Positions 6,652 through 55,096 of a stretch of 64,000 nt of DNA are shown one piece after another. The stretch is from Pelosinus fermentans JBW45 (GTDB lineage Bacteria > Bacillota > Negativicutes > DSM-13327), in assembly GCF_000271665.2 (NCBI RefSeq), contig NZ_CP010978.1:466501-530500 (forward strand), read 5' to 3'. The position numbers were made by a program, and so were the translations under genes. How positions within the stretch are numbered: position 1 is the stretch's first letter; every line of letters begins with the position of its first letter. Under the pieces are notes generated by a model that did no database searches, had not been told where the DNA came from, and saw only the letters and a program-made list of their open reading frames with translations.

Positions 6652-7652
6652 GTATAAAAGTTCTTCAGCCGGGTCTTTTGACAAGTATGCAGGATTTAGG
6701 GAGATATGGGTATCAAAAACATGGGGTTATTGTTAGTGGGGCAATGGACACCTATTCCCTGCGCATCGCCAATATTTTAGTGGGCAATCAAGAGGGCGAA
6801 GGAGCATTAGAAATAGCTTTGCTGGGGCCATCTCTTGAAATAGAAAAAGATAGTCTGCTAGCTATTACGGGCGGAAACTTATCTCCTACTATCAATGGTA
6901 AAGTAGTTCCAATGTGGAGGCCTGTTTATGTAAAAGCAGGCAGTATCCTGCAGTTTGGCGCTTGTAAGTCAGGCTGTCGCTCCTATTTAGCCATTGCAGG
7001 GGGTTACGATCTCTTGGAAGTGATGGGCAGTAAAAGCACGTATTTACGGGCTGGGATTGGAGGCTTTCAGGGACGGGCCTTGCAGCGAGGAGATGTCCTG
7101 GCAGTAAAGTCACCCCACGGAGCTTCTCTAGACCGGACGGAATATTTCAAAAGGAAATATTCACCGGAATCCTTTGTTTCATCATCCTGGTACGCAGGCA
7201 GACCGCCAATTCCCCAGGCTTTGCGCCTTACTACGATTCGAATGACCCGAGGACTCCAGTTTGAATATTTTACTGCAGAGAGTAAAAGTCAATTGCTGAA
7301 TGCTTCTTTTCAGGTCGCTGCTCAATCTGATAGAATGGGATATCGGTTGTCAGGGGTAAATTTGCAGTTGGAATCACCTTTAGAAATGATTTCGGAGGCT
7401 GTAGCTTTAGGAACTGTTCAGGTGCCGCCAGATGGAAATCCCATTATATTATTAGCAGATCGACAAACTGTAGGGGGATATCCTAAGATTGGGCAGGTAG
7501 CGATTGTCGATGTTCCGATTCTTGCACAAGTTAGGCCAGGAGCAACAATTCAGTTTCAGGAGATTACTTTGGAAGAGGCAGAACGGCTTTATATTGCACG
7601 AGAGAATGATATACAAGAGTTAAAAACTGCAATCCAATTGAAGTTTTTATAG
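6648..7652 (+). CDS. pxpC: 5-oxoprolinase subunit C family (KipA/AHS2), copy 2
   Basis: A 334-residue KipA/PxpC paralogue, somewhat longer than copy 1. Family stretches include QPGLLTSMQDLGRYGYQ at the start, SDRMGYRLSG in the middle, and SEAVALGTVQVPPDGNPI followed by TVGGYPKIGQVA. It overlaps pxpB copy 2 by 4 bases. In urea carboxylases the same two domains form the carboxyltransferase between a biotin carboxylase and a carrier domain; here those two parts follow as separate genes. Confidence 0.88.
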   Translation: MSIKVLQPGLLTSMQDLGRYGYQKHGVIVSGAMDTYSLRIANILVGNQEGEGALEIALLGPSLEIEKDSLLAITGGNLSPTINGKVVPMWRPVYVKAGSILQFGACKSGCRSYLAIAGGYDLLEVMGSKSTYLRAGIGGFQGRALQRGDVLAVKSPHGASLDRTEYFKRKYSPESFVSSSWYAGRPPIPQALRLTTIRMTRGLQFEYFTAESKSQLLNASFQVAAQSDRMGYRLSGVNLQLESPLEMISEAVALGTVQVPPDGNPIILLADRQTVGGYPKIGQVAIVDVPILAQVRPGATIQFQEITLEEAERLYIARENDIQELKTAIQLKFL

Positions 7653-45719: not shown

Positions 45720-46163
45720 TTATTCGATCAGATTAATTTCTTTAGCAAATATTTTTTGAGGATCCAAAATTATAATCATTCGATCCTCAAGCTTACCAAT
45801 ACCTGTAATGTAACTAGAGCTACAGGTGTTGATAAACTCAGGTGCCAACTGGATGTCCTGATCATCTAATTTAACAATATCTGTTACTTCATCCACTATA
45901 CAGCCAGTTGTAGATCCATTAACATTTAACATAATAAATTTACTTTCTTCTAGAAATTCTTTTTTTACCAAATTAAACTTTGTTCTTAAATTGAATATAT
46001 AATTTATTTGTCCTCGTAAGTTTATAATACCTTCTATTGACTTATCCGTATCAGGCAATGATTGTATTTTAAATTTCTTCGCTCGTAAAATGCCATTTAT
46101 AGTTGAGATATCAATACCATATTCATCTGTGCCTAACGCAAAAACAACTAATTGGACGCTCAC
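45720..46163 (-). CDS. CheW-type coupling protein
   Basis: A 147-residue single-domain CheW. VQLVVFALGTDEYGIDISTINGIL and IEGIINLRGQINYIFNLRTKF are the typical stretches. The GTG start has AGGAGG 8 bases upstream. It follows the PocR-type receptor gene by 24 bases, so it probably couples that receptor to CheA. Sequence is clearly different from the CheW of the main operon. Confidence 0.9.
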   Translation of the reverse strand: MSVQLVVFALGTDEYGIDISTINGILRAKKFKIQSLPDTDKSIEGIINLRGQINYIFNLRTKFNLVKKEFLEESKFIMLNVNGSTTGCIVDEVTDIVKLDDQDIQLAPEFINTCSSSYITGIGKLEDRMIIILDPQKIFAKEINLIE

Positions 46164-46187: not shown

Positions 46188-47246
46188 TTACTTACTATTT
46201 GCAAGATCGTTTAATTCTGCTGTAAGACTTGTAATTTCTTGTACACTTGCGGTCACTTCTTCGATGGCAGCAGCCTGCTGTTCAATTGTAGAAGTCGTTT
46301 CATTTCCCATACGTACGGTTTTATCTACGGATTCTTTTATAATGGATGTTAAATCTCTTATTTTACCTACTGTTTCTTTTGAGTCAGCGGAAAGTTTTCT
46401 AATCTCCTGGGCTACGACACCAAATCCTAGTCCGGCTTCTCCAGCTCTTGCTGCCTCGATTGCAGCATTTAAACCCAATAATCGAGTTTCATCAGCAATA
46501 TCTTTAATGAAATCCATTACCTCATCAATTTTTCCAGTTACCGTATTTACATTTGTTATCTCAGCATTTAGACGCGCCTGATTAGCACTAATATCTGTTG
46601 CGGAAGCTGCTAATTCTTCCATAGTTGCAGATACCTGATTTAATCCATCATTAAGTGTATCGGAGGCTGTTCTTAACTTTCGTTGTTGATAGGCAGTTTT
46701 CGACATACTATTAGCCACAGTAAACAATACGTTCGCCGCTGATTCTATGCTTTCTCTCGATAATTTTCGAATTTCTTGTACCGCATTTACATAGGCTTCT
46801 TCATCCACACCAATTTCTTTGGCAATTTTACGATATTTCGCATCAACTGCAACATCCGTTAAGACTTGTCCGCCTAAAATAGTACCAATCTGTCGTCCTT
46901 CTAACATAATCGGAGCTGCAAAATCTATCAGGCCAGCATGACATTCATAAATAACAGGCTTCCCTGTCCTGGATGCCTCTTCGCCGCCTTTTCTATGTGA
47001 CTCTGCACAACGATTGTCACCGGATTCTGTTGAATGCGTACAGTTACAAAAGCGAGTATAACTACTAGGTTTTGTAATAGGATTTCCATCGGGATCAACG
47101 GTGACACTTGCCAAACCAACACTTTTGGCAAAGTCATCTTGAAAAGATTGTAAGAACTCAAGATCAATAACATCTGCTAACTTAATTGCACTCAAATCTA
47201 CGTGATTGCCTGTACTTTTTACGTCACTTTTTTGATATTGAGACAT
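46188..47246 (-). CDS. Soluble chemoreceptor with N-terminal PocR sensory domain
   Basis: A 352-residue protein without membrane segments. Residues about 25-165 are a PocR domain ([26 protein letters not shown], then Cys residues in [13 protein letters not shown] and YECHAGL), a family that binds small hydrocarbon-type ligands or metals. Residues about 200-352 form a short chemoreceptor signalling domain with [35 protein letters not shown] in pieces. It lies in an operon with a CheW gene. Confidence 0.9.
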
Positions 47247-48006: not shown

Positions 48007-48043
48007 ATGATTTAATATTACAAATACAGACAAAATATAACAA

Positions 48044-48122
48044 TGTTGGCAAACCTATCGAAAGTTAGGGACGCAAAGCTATGGGTCTACAGTCGAATAA
48101 CGACCAAGATCGCCAGGCCGCC
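48044..48122 (+). promoter_or_regulatory. c-di-GMP-I (GEMM) riboswitch
   Basis: The aptamer core is seen: GGCAAACC, the tetraloop CGAAAG, GGGACGCAAAGC, GGGTCTA, and the closing GATCGCCAGG with GCC. This is the class I c-di-GMP aptamer layout. A terminator follows at 48147-48175. It sits in the leader of the chemotaxis operon. Whether it prefers c-di-GMP or cGAMP cannot be told with certainty. Confidence 0.92.
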
Positions 48123-48146
48123 ATGCTAGTGTATACTGGCATGTCC

Positions 48147-48175
48147 AAGGTCAGGCTACCCCTGGCCTTTTTTTT
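48147..48175 (+). terminator. Riboswitch-linked terminator
   Basis: AAGGTCAGG and CCTGGCCTT form a 9-bp stem with a 5-base loop, then a run of T to 48175. It is the likely expression platform of the riboswitch; a CATGC-tAGT-GTAT-ACT-gGCATG hairpin lies between them. Confidence 0.85.
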
Positions 48176-48275
48176 GTGTTTTGATGGGTAATATGATGCA
48201 CTTTAAAATGATAGTCATTAGGGTCAGATCAAAACGGGATTGCAAGTAAATACTTAGGGATGAAAGGATGAGAAG

Positions 48276-48629
48276 ATGAGAGTACTTATTGTTGATGATG
48301 CCCTTTTTATTCGGAGAACACTTAAAATGATTTTGGAACAAAATGGTTATGAGGTAGTAGGCGAAGCCGAAAACGGTCTAGAAGGAATCCTAAAATATAA
48401 ATTGCTTCAACCTGACTTGATTACAATGGATATAACAATGCCGCAAATGGATGGTTTAACGGCATTGAAGGCAATAAAAAAAATTGATCCCAGTGCAAAA
48501 GTCGTTATGATAACAGCGTTAGGTAATGAATCTACAGTAAAAGAAACAATATTATCTGGTGCTAACGGATTTATCGTAAAGCCATTTGTTCAAGAACAAG
48601 TCCTTCGAGGGCTGAGTGCCTTCAAATAG
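48276..48629 (+). CDS. cheY: CheY response regulator
   Basis: A 117-residue single receiver domain with VDDA, the phospho-acceptor Asp52 in ITMDITMPQMDG, a Thr-like switch in MITALGN, and the conserved Lys in FIVKPF. It has no output domain. It is the first gene after the riboswitch and is probably the switch protein for the flagellar motor. Confidence 0.93.
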   Translation: MRVLIVDDALFIRRTLKMILEQNGYEVVGEAENGLEGILKYKLLQPDLITMDITMPQMDGLTALKAIKKIDPSAKVVMITALGNESTVKETILSGANGFIVKPFVQEQVLRGLSAFK

Positions 48630-48691
48630 CAGAAATATGTGTAGAAACGATGCATTGCCGCAGATGGTAGTACTTATGTGAGGGTGATTTA

Positions 48692-50695
48692 ATGGACAAT
48701 GATGATAGCAGAGTCCCGATGAGCGATCTTTTTGTTTTCGAAACCAATCAGATGCTTGAGCAACTTGAGAGACTTATTTTAGATGGAGAAAAATCTGGCG
48801 GTTTAAAAGCATCCATCAATGAAGTGTTTAGAATTATGCATACCATTAAGGGGTCTGCAGCGATGATGTTGTTTAACGATATTTCATGTTTGGCCCACTC
48901 CATAGAAGATGTGTTTTATTATCTTCGGGAAAACAAGCCTTTACTGGTGGATTATTCGGAACTAACTGATTTGGTTTTGCAGGCTGTCGATTTTATCAAG
49001 GATGAAGTTAGAAAGGTGGAGAATAGAGAAAGTCCTACAGGTGATTGCTCGGAGATTAGAAAAAAAAGTGGAGCTTTTTTATTGACTCTACAAGTAATTG
49101 ATCCAGCTTCGAAGGATATTTCCTTAAAGTCGCTAGATCATGAAGAACTCCAGCATGATATAGACGAAAAACCTGTGAGGGAAGGGCAAACGAAATGGGA
49201 AGCTGTCATCTTTTTTGATGAGGATTGTGGGATGGAAAATATAAGGGCTTTTACGCTGGTTCACGAACTAGAGGAGCTTGCTGAAGACATTGCGTTTTTT
49301 CCCAAAGATATCTTAGAAAATGACAGCACAGCGGAGATGATTAGAGAAGCTGGTTTCAAGGTGGTGTTCGCTACCGTAAATTCGTCAGCAAGGCTGGAAG
49401 AATTTTTTGCCAAAACAATGTTCTTGAAAAACTTTCAGCTAAAGAAAACCATCAATTTGGAGGAGTCGATTGCCAATTCTGTTGTTTCAGATAATTCTAA
49501 GCCGTCAAGTTTACAGGAAATATCCCAACGAGGAGAAAGCAAGCATAGTTTTATTAGTGTAAATGTAGCGAAAATGGATATGCTCATGGATCTAGTTGGG
49601 GAACTTGTTATTGCTGAGGCTATGGTAACTCAAAATCCAGAACTACAAGGCGTGACTTTAGATAAGTTCTATAAGTCGGTCCGACAATTAAGGAAAATTA
49701 CAGGTGAACTTCAAGATACAGTTATGTCAATTCGTATGGTTCCCTTATCAGCAACTTTTCATAAGATGAATCGCATTGTAAGAGATATGGTGCGACAGCT
49801 TGATAAGCAGGCGGAGCTCCAAATCGTAGGAGAACACACGGAAGTAGACAAAAATATCATTGAACATATTTCTGATCCTTTGATGCACTTAATTCGCAAC
49901 GCTGTGGATCATGGAATTGAGCCTGCTGAAGAGCGAATCGCTCAAGGAAAAGCAGCAGTAGGCAAGATTCGCCTGGAGGCTAAAAGTGCTGGCGGCGATG
50001 TTTGGATTGTTATAAAAGATGACGGCGGGGGCTTACATAGAGAAAAAATTCTGAAAAAAGCATTGGAGAGGGGGCTTATTCATCAGGCAGACAGCTTGTT
50101 AACCGACAAACAGGTCTATTCTTTTATTCTCCAACCTGGATTTTCCACTAAGGACGAAGTGACAGAGTTTTCCGGTAGGGGCGTTGGTATGGATGTGGTG
50201 TCTCAGAATATCGAAAAGGTTGGCGGAACTATTAGTGTGGATAGTGTACAGGGCGAAGGGACAACAATGTCAATCCGCATCCCGTTAACTTTAGCTATCA
50301 TTGACGGCATGAAAGTTAAAGTTGGAAATTCAATCTATACAATACCTATTATAGCGATTAAAGAGTCTTTTCGGCTGCAAGACCAAAATTTGATTACAGA
50401 TGCTGAAAAAAATGAAATGGTTATGATCCGGGGGCAGTGTTACCCTGTTCTGCGTCTGCACGAACGGTTCAATGTACAACAGACCACGACGGATTTGCGG
50501 GAAGGAATCATGGTTATGGTTGAGGTGGATGGCAGAAGTCTCTGCTTATTTGCTGATTCCTTGCTAGGCCAGCAGCAGGTTGTAGTGAAGGCTTTACCTA
50601 GTTATATCAAAAAGATAAGAGGGATAGCCGGTTGTACGATGCTGGGGGATGGCAGTGTTAGCTTAATATTAGATGTGGCTGGGCTAGCTTACTGA
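48692..50695 (+). CDS. cheA: Chemotaxis histidine kinase CheA
   Basis: A 667-residue CheA. P1 (about 1-110) holds the phospho-His50 in MHTIKGSAAM; a P2-like region follows (about 165-260); P3 dimerisation (about 290-355); P4 ATPase with HLIRNAVDHGIE, DDGGGL and GRGVGMDVV; and P5, the CheW-like end (LGDGSVSLILDVAGLAY). The stop is TGA, but the same frame stays open for 34 more codons to 50800 and ends in LDDSEFGKY. See findings. Confidence 0.96.
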   Translation: MDNDDSRVPMSDLFVFETNQMLEQLERLILDGEKSGGLKASINEVFRIMHTIKGSAAMMLFNDISCLAHSIEDVFYYLRENKPLLVDYSELTDLVLQAVDFIKDEVRKVENRESPTGDCSEIRKKSGAFLLTLQVIDPASKDISLKSLDHEELQHDIDEKPVREGQTKWEAVIFFDEDCGMENIRAFTLVHELEELAEDIAFFPKDILENDSTAEMIREAGFKVVFATVNSSARLEEFFAKTMFLKNFQLKKTINLEESIANSVVSDNSKPSSLQEISQRGESKHSFISVNVAKMDMLMDLVGELVIAEAMVTQNPELQGVTLDKFYKSVRQLRKITGELQDTVMSIRMVPLSATFHKMNRIVRDMVRQLDKQAELQIVGEHTEVDKNIIEHISDPLMHLIRNAVDHGIEPAEERIAQGKAAVGKIRLEAKSAGGDVWIVIKDDGGGLHREKILKKALERGLIHQADSLLTDKQVYSFILQPGFSTKDEVTEFSGRGVGMDVVSQNIEKVGGTISVDSVQGEGTTMSIRIPLTLAIIDGMKVKVGNSIYTIPIIAIKESFRLQDQNLITDAEKNEMVMIRGQCYPVLRLHERFNVQQTTTDLREGIMVMVEVDGRSLCLFADSLLGQQQVVVKALPSYIKKIRGIAGCTMLGDGSVSLILDVAGLAY

Positions 50696-50800
50696 GGAAA
50701 GATAAAGAACTATCAGCAATATAGCAGTGACGAGAAAAAACCGGACATTGGTCTCAAAAGGGAAAATACTCTTGATGACAGTGAATTTGGTAAGTATTAG
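50696..50800 (+). other. In-frame extension after the cheA stop ending in LDDSEFGKY
   Basis: After the cheA TGA the same frame is open for 34 codons: a charged, unstructured stretch (GKIKNYQQYSSDEKKPDIG), then [15 protein letters not shown] and TAG. The end is nearly identical to the end of the receptor encoded at 51374-53095. It is either a readthrough tail of CheA or the remnant of a lost receptor gene. Confidence 0.55.
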
Positions 50801-50839
50801 ATGAATTTTGATGTATACAAGAAAGGAGATCTATCTATC

Positions 50840-51352
50840 ATGTCTGAAGTTATTGAAAATGAGGTAGAACTTGAAGAAGATACCCAGAAAGATAAGTTTC
50901 TAACATTTTTTTTGGGGGATGAAGTCTATGGCATCGAAATTAAGTTTGTTACCGAGATTATTGGCCTGCAGTCGATAACTCAAATACCTGACCTCCCTGA
51001 TTATGTAAAAGGCATTATCAATCTTCGGGGCAAAATCATTCCTGTGATCGATGTTAGATTACGGTTTAAGAAATCGTCTCAAGAGTACAATGATCGAACC
51101 TGCATTGTTGTAGTTGAGATAAAGGAAGTTGCTGTAGGATTCATTGTGGATACTGTGGCAGAAGTGCTGACAATCCAAAGTCAGGACATCGTTTTACCGC
51201 CTCAGTTCAAGAATGGCAGTCATTATCAAAGGTTCATTAAAGGGATCGGTAAAGTAGACAATGTTGTAAAGTTAATCCTTGATTGTGATAGGCTGTTAAA
51301 TGATGAGGAAATGAATAGTTTAGAGGAACTTAGTTCTGGACAATCTAAATAG
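50840..51352 (+). CDS. cheW: CheW coupling protein
   Basis: A 170-residue CheW with the CheW fold (KFLTFFLGDEVYGIEIKFVTEIIG, YVKGIINLRGKIIPVIDVRLRF, AVGFIVDTVAEVL). The ATG at 50840 is preferred because GAAAGGAGAT lies 8 bases upstream; an ATG at 50801 directly follows the LDDSEFGKY stop. It links CheA to the receptors. Confidence 0.95.
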   Translation: MSEVIENEVELEEDTQKDKFLTFFLGDEVYGIEIKFVTEIIGLQSITQIPDLPDYVKGIINLRGKIIPVIDVRLRFKKSSQEYNDRTCIVVVEIKEVAVGFIVDTVAEVLTIQSQDIVLPPQFKNGSHYQRFIKGIGKVDNVVKLILDCDRLLNDEEMNSLEELSSGQSK

Positions 51353-51373
51353 CTGTAAAAAGGTGGAGATGAT

Positions 51374-53095
51374 ATGAATTGGTTTCAAAGTTTAAAAATT
51401 GCTAACAAGCTTATTATTGCGTTTCTGGGTGTGGCGGTGATCGCAGGTTTGGTGGGTATGGTGGCTATATTCAATCTGTCTAACTTAGCTCAGGAAGATA
51501 CGGAGTTGTACGAAAATTATACTGTGCCTATGGGACAACTGGGAGATCTTAGTGAAATCTACCAAAAAGGACGGGTAAATTTTAGAGATGCGCTTGTCAG
51601 TAAAGATCCAAGAGTCCAAAATGATAAGATGAAACAGTTTAACGACTCCATAACCCAAATGAAGGCAGTAAGCGGCGAGATTGCAAAAACAATAGGAACC
51701 GAGGAAGGCCGTAAGTTACTTAAGAACCTTGACGATGCTCTTGGGCAATATGAGTCCTATTCTAGAAATTTGTTTCCCATGTTCCAAGCAGGTCAGGTGG
51801 AGCAGGTCAATCAATTAATGCAAACAGAGGGCATTCAGTTAGCAAATACCATTGGCGGTACTCTTGATCAGTTAAGTGCACTAAAAATAGAGTTAGCTAA
51901 ACAGAAAGCGGCAAATAACAAGGCTGACGCAAGTAAAGCCATTGTTATTATGATAACAATTGTTATCGCGGGTGTAGGGCTATCGATAGTACTCGGTGTT
52001 TATATAGCACGGCTGATTTCCCGGCCGATTAAAGAAATGGTTACTGTTGCAGGCCGAATTGCTGGTGGTGATTTGAACGTTGCGGTTACTGTTAAAACTG
52101 GGGATGAAACAGGGGAGCTGGCTCAGGCATTTAATAAAATGGCCGATAATATCAATCGAACCATGAGCAGCATTAATCAAGCAGCAGAGCAGGTGGCTTC
52201 AGGTGCTCAGCAAATTGCTGCGTCTGGAGAGATTTTATCTCAGGGTTCTACTGAGCAGGCTAGTTCCATTGAGGAGATTACGGCCTCAATGACGCAAGTA
52301 GCCGTTCAGACCAAGCAGAATGCAGTGAATGCCAATCACGCTAACGAACTGGCTTTGTCTTCTCAACAACAAGCTGCGGAAGGCAATACGCAAATGCAGG
52401 CGATGGTTACAGCCATGACTGAGATTAACGAGTCATCAACTAACATATCTAAGATCATCAAAGTTATTGATGAAATCGCTTTCCAAACAAATATTCTGGC
52501 TCTTAATGCCGCGGTGGAAGCAGCGAGGGCGGGGCAGCATGGCAAAGGGTTTGCTGTGGTAGCGGAAGAAGTCCGAAATTTGGCCGCTAGAAGTGCCAAT
52601 GCCGCCAAGGAAACAACGGCAATGATTGAGGGAGCCATCAAAAAAGTAGATGTTGGCACGCAAATCGCCACCGATACTTCTAAAGCGTTAAATAGTATAG
52701 TAGACGGTGTAGCTCAAGCGGCAGCGCTGGTTGGTGATATTGCTGCGGCTTGCAACGAGCAGGCTACAGCTATTTCGCAAATTAACCAGGCGATTACTCA
52801 GGTGTCACAGGTTGTGCAAACCAATTCGGCAACGGCGGAGGAAAGTGCTGCTGCCAGCGAGGAATTGTCCGGACAGTCCGAAGTAATGAAAGAAAATGTT
52901 GCCAAATTTAAGCTTAAGCAAAGTACTAGTAGCTTTCAAAAGGGAGAAGTATTAAGCCCTGAAATGATGGGGGCCATTGAAATGATGATGGAGAAAAAGC
53001 AGCAGAAACAAATAGGTGCAGAGGAGAATCGTCAACGGGTATCGACGCCAAAGGGAAAAATCGTTCTTGATGATAGCGAGTTTGGTAAATATTAG
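51374..53095 (+). CDS. Methyl-accepting chemotaxis protein with four-helix sensor and LDDSEFGKY tail
   Basis: A 573-residue transmembrane receptor. TM1 is about 12-32, a four-helix-bundle ligand domain about 35-190, TM2 about 193-213, HAMP about 215-267, and the signalling domain about 280-520 with the tip [39 protein letters not shown] in pieces. After the signalling helix comes a flexible charged linker of about 45 residues and the C-terminal [11 protein letters not shown]. Such C-terminal peptides in other species bind CheR or CheB (for example NWETF in E. coli); cheR and cheB follow directly here. Confidence 0.95.
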
Positions 53096-53122
53096 TGCTA
53101 TTATAGCTATTCGAGGACATGA

Positions 53123-53203
53123 TCTACAAAAAACAAAGCAGAAGCCCTCTCAAATACAAAAACAAAAATCCTTCTTGACGACAAAGAATTCGGCAAGTAT
53201 TAA
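53123..53203 (+). other. Orphan third copy of the LDDxEFGKY tail
   Basis: In the frame of the preceding receptor, after its TAG and a second stop (TGA at 53120), a start-less stretch of 26 codons reads STKNKAEALSNTKTK, then ILLDDKEFGKY and TAA. Codons differ from the other two copies at most positions while the residues are kept. It looks like the 3' end of a deleted receptor gene. Confidence 0.5.
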
Positions 53204-53234
53204 TTACAGGGTATACTAGAAAGGGCAGGAGACC

Positions 53235-54050
53235 ATGAAAGAGATAACGGAACGGGAGTTTACTGAGCTTGTGGGGTTCGTCAAGCAAACCTATGGAATC
53301 AACTTATTGCATAAGAAAACTCTGGTGTGTGGGCGCTTGAATAATTATATCGTGCAAAGTGGCTTTCAGAGTTTCTCGGAGTATTTTTCTCATGTAAAAA
53401 GTGACCATACGGGTAAATCTGGAGTCATTCTAGTCAATAAACTTACGACCAATCACACGTATTTTTTGCGGGAACCCCAGCATTTTGAATTCTTGGAGCG
53501 AGTGATCCTGCCCTATTACGCCGCAAATGAAGCCAGGAAAAAAGATTTGCGGGTATGGAGTGCGGGTTGCTCTACAGGGGAAGAACCTTATACTTTGGCA
53601 ATACTGATCAACTCTTATTTTGGCGTTAAAAAGTATGGGTGGGATACCAAAATTTTAGCTACAGATATTTCTACAGCCGTGCTGGAACAAGCACAAAAAG
53701 CAGTATATGCTAGTACGCAGTTAGAAAAGCTGCCTGAACGCTGGCGAGAGCAATACTTTACTAAGATAGATGCTGAGTCTAGCATAGTAAAAGATTCAAT
53801 TCGGCAGGAAGTTATATTTCGGCGATTTAATCTTATGAACGAAATGTTTCCTTTCAAAAAAAAGTTTCATCTTATTTTCTGCCGAAATGTAATGATCTAC
53901 TTTGATGCCGAGACCAAGATAAAGTTGATTAATCGATTTTATGATCACATGGAGCCAGGTGGTTATTTGTTCATTGGGCATTCTGAATCGATTAACCGCC
54001 ACGAAAGTAACTATCAGTTTGTGGCGCCCGCTATTTACAGAAAGGTATAG
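53235..54050 (+). CDS. cheR: Chemotaxis protein methyltransferase CheR
   Basis: A 271-residue CheR. The N-terminal helical domain (about 1-75) is followed by a SAM-dependent methyltransferase domain with LRVWSAGCSTGEEPYTLAIL, ATDIS, FRRFNLMNEMFPF and DLIFCRNVMIYFD-like residues (HLIFCRNVMIYFDAET). It methylates receptor glutamates. Its beta-subdomain could bind the LDDxEFGKY tails; this is inference. Confidence 0.96.
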   Translation: MKEITEREFTELVGFVKQTYGINLLHKKTLVCGRLNNYIVQSGFQSFSEYFSHVKSDHTGKSGVILVNKLTTNHTYFLREPQHFEFLERVILPYYAANEARKKDLRVWSAGCSTGEEPYTLAILINSYFGVKKYGWDTKILATDISTAVLEQAQKAVYASTQLEKLPERWREQYFTKIDAESSIVKDSIRQEVIFRRFNLMNEMFPFKKKFHLIFCRNVMIYFDAETKIKLINRFYDHMEPGGYLFIGHSESINRHESNYQFVAPAIYRKV

Positions 54051-54055
54051 GGATT

Positions 54056-55096
54056 ATGAATAGTAATAAACGGAAGATTAGGGTATTAGTAGTTGATGAT
54101 TCTATTGTTTTTCGCGAAACTTTGGTAAGGCAAATTGCACGGGATTCTATTATTGAGGTGGTGGCAACGGCATCCGACCCTTATATGGCCAGGGACAAAA
54201 TTTTAGAGTTGGAACCGGATGTCATGACTCTCGATGTGGAGATGCCGCGGATGAGCGGGATAGAGTTTCTAAAAAAACTTATTCCTCAATATCCCATACC
54301 CGTTGTGGTGGTAAGTGCTGTCAGTGGAAGCGTCTTCGACGCTTTGAATGCTGGGGCTGTTGATTTTGTTACCAAACCAGATAGCCTAGGTGCTCGGGGC
54401 GTAGAGGCCTTTATCAGTGAACTAATTGTTAAAATAAAGATTGCATCCACAGCTAAGGTCGCAGTTTCGAAAAAAAATGTTAGTAGGGTATCCGTCAATT
54501 CAAGGATTGGATTAGTGAAACAAAACGGTATGATTGCTATTGGTGCCTCAACAGGTGGGACTGAGGCAATCGCAACCGTAATCAAGGATTTTCCTGCCAA
54601 TATGCCGGGTACAGTTATCGTTCAGCATATGCCTCCTATCTTTACTGCTATGTATGCTGCACGGCTTAATAGCTTATGTGCTGTTGAAGTGAGAGAAGCC
54701 AAGAACGGAGACATGATTTTGCCGGGCCTGGTTTTAATTGCCCCTGGTGATTATCATATGAGGATTAAACCCATCCATAATAACTATATGGTAGAATGTG
54801 TTAAGGGTGAGAAGGTTAATGGTCATTGTCCCGCGGTAGATGTTCTTTTCCATTCTGTAGCTGAGCATGCTGGCAGCAAGGCTATCGGTGTGGTTTTAAC
54901 TGGAATGGGCAATGATGGTGCTAGCGGTTTACTGGCCATTCGTAAAGCCCAAGGAAGAACCTTGGGGCAGGATGAAGGATCTTCAGTTGTTTATGGTATG
55001 CCAAAGGCTGCTTTTACTATTGGAGCTGTTCAAACACAAGTTCCTCTTAACCTTATGTCACGCAAAATATATGCATTAGTGGACAGTCGGCAGTAA
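54056..55096 (+). CDS. cheB: Chemotaxis protein-glutamate methylesterase CheB
   Basis: A 346-residue CheB. The receiver domain (about 8-125) has VDDS and the phospho-Asp in MTLDVEMPRMSG. The esterase domain (about 155-346) has the catalytic triad in IGASTGGTEAI (Ser), VQHMPP (His) and MGNDGASG (Asp). It removes methyl groups and deamidates receptor glutamines. It overlaps no gene and ends the operon. Confidence 0.96.
   Translation: MNSNKRKIRVLVVDDSIVFRETLVRQIARDSIIEVVATASDPYMARDKILELEPDVMTLDVEMPRMSGIEFLKKLIPQYPIPVVVVSAVSGSVFDALNAGAVDFVTKPDSLGARGVEAFISELIVKIKIASTAKVAVSKKNVSRVSVNSRIGLVKQNGMIAIGASTGGTEAIATVIKDFPANMPGTVIVQHMPPIFTAMYAARLNSLCAVEVREAKNGDMILPGLVLIAPGDYHMRIKPIHNNYMVECVKGEKVNGHCPAVDVLFHSVAEHAGSKAIGVVLTGMGNDGASGLLAIRKAQGRTLGQDEGSSVVYGMPKAAFTIGAVQTQVPLNLMSRKIYALVDSRQ

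Follow-up and report, generated by a model that had tools for sequence, protein, structure and literature searches.

The NWETF-type pentapeptide at the C-terminus of the Escherichia coli chemoreceptors Tar and Tsr binds the β-subdomain of CheR and also activated CheB. Such tethering of the two adaptation enzymes has been seen as mainly proteobacterial and is linked to a long β-loop in CheR. The published rule for CheR/CheB-binding pentapeptides is a C-terminal xZxxZ in which Z is F, W, or Y (PMC7390727); pentapeptide-dependent CheRs are characterized by the long β-loop together with the contact residues Q182, R187, G188, G190, G194, and R197, and a short β-loop is the mark of pentapeptide-independent CheRs (PMC2577667, PMC3062574, PMC5907407). 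Further described tails include the Geobacter EFEKF, a pentapeptide of the xF/YxxF/Y type on class 34H receptors (PMC2577667), and the GWEEF of Pseudomonas aeruginosa McpB/Aer2, which works with CheR2 and CheB2 (PMC7698151).

We analyzed a chemotaxis operon of Pelosinus fermentans JBW45 (NZ_CP010978.1) whose receptor ends in a tail of this general kind; all coordinates are positions in the window, the 64,000-nt stretch of DNA under study, and features lie on its forward strand unless stated otherwise. The operon (48276-55096) has the gene order cheY-cheA-cheW-mcp-cheR-cheB. A cheY-like response regulator (48276-48629) is the first gene, followed by cheA (48692-50695; 667 residues with Hpt, P2, dimerisation, ATPase, and CheW domains), cheW (50840-51352, with the start taken from comparison with relatives, the ORF list giving 50801), a receptor gene encoding 573 amino acids (mcp, 51374-53095), cheR (53235-54050), and cheB (54056-55096). 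A c-di-GMP-I riboswitch aptamer lies upstream (48038-48125; RF01051, 71.5 bits, E 5.6e-13), with a terminator-like sequence at ~48147-48176 between it and cheY; no terminator-like site was found in 50600-53300. The same riboswitch precedes cheY in six of the ten relatives tested (G005, G006, G009, G020, G039, and G130), and expression of this pathway is thus probably tied to c-di-GMP. A receptor-like protein with PocR sensory and MCP-signal domains (46188-47246) and an adjoining stand-alone cheW (45720-46163) are encoded on the reverse strand. Elsewhere, in the S. ovata assembly (G126, L067 926-3039), cheA is apparently split into two overlapping frames, either by a frameshift or through an error in sequencing.

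The receptor comprises a 4HB sensor, a HAMP domain, a signalling domain, a linker of ~60 residues, and the tail (53060-53095). Its signalling domain aligned to that of E. coli Tar without a gap and is thus of the 36H type, so that two hallmarks of pentapeptide-bearing receptors, a linker-separated tail and a 34H/36H signalling domain, are present. The resemblance to the Tar/Tsr system extends to the flexibility of the linker, the operon with cheR and cheB, and the aromatic residues at the second and fifth of the last five positions; the tail differs from NWETF in that F and Y replace W and F and that the motif spans 11 residues. The Geobacter tail shares the E-F-x-K-aromatic end, and its receptors are likewise grouped with their own cheR, although they belong to class 34H (PMC2577667) whereas the receptor here aligns as 36H. 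The other receptors inspected in the genome carry 14-residue inserts and end directly after the signalling domain, and the CheR of this operon, one of three in the genome, shares only 31-35% identity with the others. Judged from these alignments, the operon encodes a second, dedicated pathway, which has a Tar-like receptor with linker and tail and a CheR and CheB of its own. P. aeruginosa McpB/Aer2 offers a parallel, as it too is a tailed receptor dedicated to a single pathway in a multi-pathway genome; unlike the enzyme here, however, its CheR2 is a long-loop CheR (PMC3062574).

The tail is strongly conserved among relatives. In 24 receptors of this operon type, which were found through their CheA and not through the tag, the tail was present in every case, and five of its residues were invariant: I at -11, L at -9, F at -4, K at -2, and Y at -1. 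A pattern scan of GTDB genomes recovered the tail on at least 120 contigs; the matches listed came from Clostridia, Negativicutes, Bacilli, Desulfuromonadales and other deltaproteobacterial lineages, Kiritimatiellae, and one planctomycete, and a receptor signature was found in 75 of the 79 complete tagged ORFs among them. Two positions that the search pattern did not impose were conserved among the 117 distinct tails listed: isoleucine at -11 occurred in 113, and serine or aspartate prevailed at -8. On the strength of this conservation we define the motif as IxL[DS]DxEFGKY, 11 residues and therefore longer than a pentapeptide. A cheR start lay within 330 nt downstream of the tag at 49 of 114 places among the matches listed; the gene following the tailed receptor is usually cheR and not cheB, with cheB mostly coming after cheR. 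The relatives thus bear out the proposal in the initial annotation of a conserved C-terminal receptor tail adjoining cheR and cheB. Its view that the tail is of an unrecognized type is not supported, as EFGKY fits the published xZxxZ rule for chemoreceptors of the Tar/Tsr type and resembles the xF/YxxF/Y tails, including Geobacter EFEKF. In the literature searched, neither EFGKY nor FGKY in connection with chemoreceptors was mentioned. Many of the tailed deltaproteobacterial and Kiritimatiellae receptors (L082, L084, L097, and others) also carry a WG pair ~15-25 residues N-terminal to the tail, which may be a second docking element.

The best reading of this pattern, resting on comparative analysis, is that the tail tethers adaptation enzymes, with the operon's CheR as the likely partner and its CheB as a likely second one. 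The CheR evidence does not fit the described mode of tethering, however. In alignment, the window CheR has a β-loop three residues shorter and lacks the residues corresponding to Salmonella R187, G188, G190, G194, and R197, and the CheRs adjoining tailed receptors in the other aligned genomes likewise have a short β-loop and lack these contacts, unlike the Geobacter group B CheRs, which are reported to share the pocket residues (PMC2577667). We therefore do not assign these enzymes to the pentapeptide-dependent group; since the cognate CheR is always of the short-loop type, the putative docking site of the tail may differ from the known CheR pocket. A CheR model from S. ovata matched 1BC5 overall (TM 0.88 by target length), and the CheR positions specific to this group are spread uninformatively over the protein, with 5 of 39 in the β-subdomain and no concentration there. 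When the S. ovata tail, linker, and CheR were modelled with AlphaFold2 as one in-frame read-through, the CheR part was modelled well and the tail was disordered (pLDDT ~30), in a construct that blocks the C-terminus and has no positive control, so that this outcome carries little weight.

One may postulate, then, that the tail docks on CheB or another array protein, or on CheR outside the β-subdomain pocket, a reading to which we give a substantial minority of the probability. The missing loop and pocket residues of the cognate CheR and the length of the motif, 11 residues rather than 5, both point in this direction. E. coli CheB binds the pentapeptide at a segment near the end of its receiver domain (PMC8609364), and at that same segment the CheBs of these operons share a conserved ELIxKIKIA; the R134/H138 pocket of pentapeptide-dependent CheBs, located in the receiver-linker helix, was not evident, a comparison complicated by the fact that the E. 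coli CheB sequence used has Ser at 134, so its numbering differs from that of the published model. Against CheB as the principal partner stands the gene order, as it is cheR that usually follows the tailed receptor directly even though cheB mostly comes after it. Tentatively, and with somewhat less than even confidence, we suggest that IxL[DS]DxEFGKY is a tether in its own right, widespread and 11 residues long, for short-β-loop CheR, or for CheB, acting through a site not yet described.

The same peptide occurs twice more in the operon outside any intact gene. The first copy (50768-50800) lies between cheA and cheW and the third, ILLDDKEFGKY-TAA (53168-53203), between mcp and cheR; the second is the tail of the receptor itself. 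All three were confirmed where the initial annotation had placed them, and the codon differences between them are mostly synonymous, as it had claimed. A scan of the 5.38-Mb genome returned exactly three matches to DDxEFGKY followed by a stop codon, all in this operon, and no tagged receptor was found outside it among the 39 MCP-signal matches in the genome. In the window, EFGKY-stop matched three times, compared with none in each of 100 shuffles of the window; together with the restriction to three sites in the genome, this excludes a chance origin of the three tags.

Neither orphan copy has an in-frame ATG, GTG, or TTG, and both show the marks of pseudogene remnants, including frame damage. 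Copy 1 occupies the end of 34 open codons in the cheA/cheW gap (50696-50800; relic score reached in 0 of 1000 shuffles), and against living tails it shows gaps of 5 and 1 nt, a net change of -6 nt that keeps the frame. Copy 3 sits in the mcp/cheR gap (53096-53203) as KNKAEALSNTKTKILLDDKEFGKY-TAA, in the receptor frame past its TAG, with a further TGA (53120-53122) intervening; it is open for ~24 codons, which resemble living linkers (KNKAEALSNTKTKILLDD vs KNEAVLTAREKIVLDD). Full homologous genes stand at both places in relatives. In four of them (G130, G146, G122, and G020) the order is cheA-mcp-cheW-mcp-cheR, with a complete tailed receptor between cheA and cheW, and in another (G110) it is cheA-cheW-mcp-mcp-cheR, with a complete tailed receptor between mcp and cheR; all receptors of these five operons end in IxLDDxEF(G/D)KY. 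Decayed tails occupy the same gaps in other relatives: RIVL[GS]DKDSYKS-stop between mcp and cheR in G005 and G006 (1 of 1000 shuffles each) and KFALDDQDFRKI between cheA and cheW in G039 (0 of 1000 shuffles). No tail relic was found in the gaps of the remaining relatives scored. The G039 gap (L026 7013-7146) reads KFALDDQDFRKIARD in a frame other than that of cheA, a copy-1-like relic in another family. Two more tags without an upstream receptor ORF, in L085 near 6955-6984 and on the minus strand of L148, may be further orphan tails or may match by chance.

From these sequence comparisons, the best explanation of copies 1 and 3 is that they are 3′ remnants of receptors since lost. An origin from lost receptors was one of two options that the initial annotation had offered and is the better supported; for the other, unusual expression, we found no support. 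The G005 and G006 mcp/cheR gaps are identical at 119 of 124 positions compared with 0.89 at fourfold sites, a neutral-rate comparison that is suggestive though not decisive, and the gap of the present genome is 62% identical to that of G006 where aligned, compared with 40% at fourfold sites. Reading the intact orphan tags as dead sequence requires that the loss was recent; as both tags are intact in P. fermentans JBW45, its receptor losses were probably later than, and separate from, those in G005 and G006, unless the orphans are under selection.

Alternatives to receptor loss fare poorly. Duplication of just the 3′ part of the receptor gene, with no whole receptor ever lost, would account for the presence of the gene end alone at both orphan places. 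It is nonetheless improbable, as relatives hold whole receptors at both places; moreover, at most of their synonymous sites the three tails differ in DNA sequence, which excludes a recent duplication. We give a still smaller probability to a scenario in which ribosomes sometimes read through the cheA TGA (50693-50695) and so produce a CheA form with a 34-residue tailed extension that also recruits CheR and CheB. Copy 1 is indeed in frame with cheA, open for 34 codons past the TGA, and its gaps against living tails preserve that frame, yet an in-frame position arises by chance one time in three, the RNA fold over the gaps is not unusual (z -0.33), and a comparison with Rfam showed no recoding element there. 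The relatives have whole receptors at the position of copy 1, and in none of them does a tail-encoding extension follow cheA in frame, which makes recoding of cheA unlikely. Expression of the orphan tails as short peptides that compete for CheR and CheB would agree with the intactness of both tags at the protein level, but is the least credible alternative given the lack of start codons, the homology of both positions to full receptors, and the decayed versions in relatives. We also considered a recombination switch between the three tails and rejected it, as DNA identity, judged by eye, is too low and exact matches are short.

A single explanation, to which we assign a probability of about 0.72, joins both parts: the receptor tail would be a tether for adaptation enzymes, and the orphans the 3′ ends of deleted receptors. 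Under this explanation, the C-terminal IxL[DS]DxEFGKY would do what NWETF does in E. coli Tar and Tsr, holding the pathway's own CheR, and probably its CheB, near the methylation sites on the ~60-residue flexible linker. It would thereby keep the 36H-type pathway apart from the other, longer receptors of the genome. Two more receptors would once have stood in the operon, one between cheA and cheW and one between mcp and cheR, and the orphan copies would be what survived when their bodies were deleted; having no start codon, these copies are most likely untranslated.

These results bear on how widely tethering is distributed and on how it works. A longer tail with the aromatic pattern of the pentapeptide is widespread in Firmicutes and deltaproteobacterial lineages, where it is closely linked to short-loop CheRs. 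The pairing of such a tail with a short-loop CheR may point either to a second mode of docking or to an error in the loop rule; if a separate tether for short-loop CheRs does exist, it would overturn the rule that these enzymes are tether-independent. The orphan copies, for their part, illustrate how receptor genes are lost from che operons while their ends remain recognizable.
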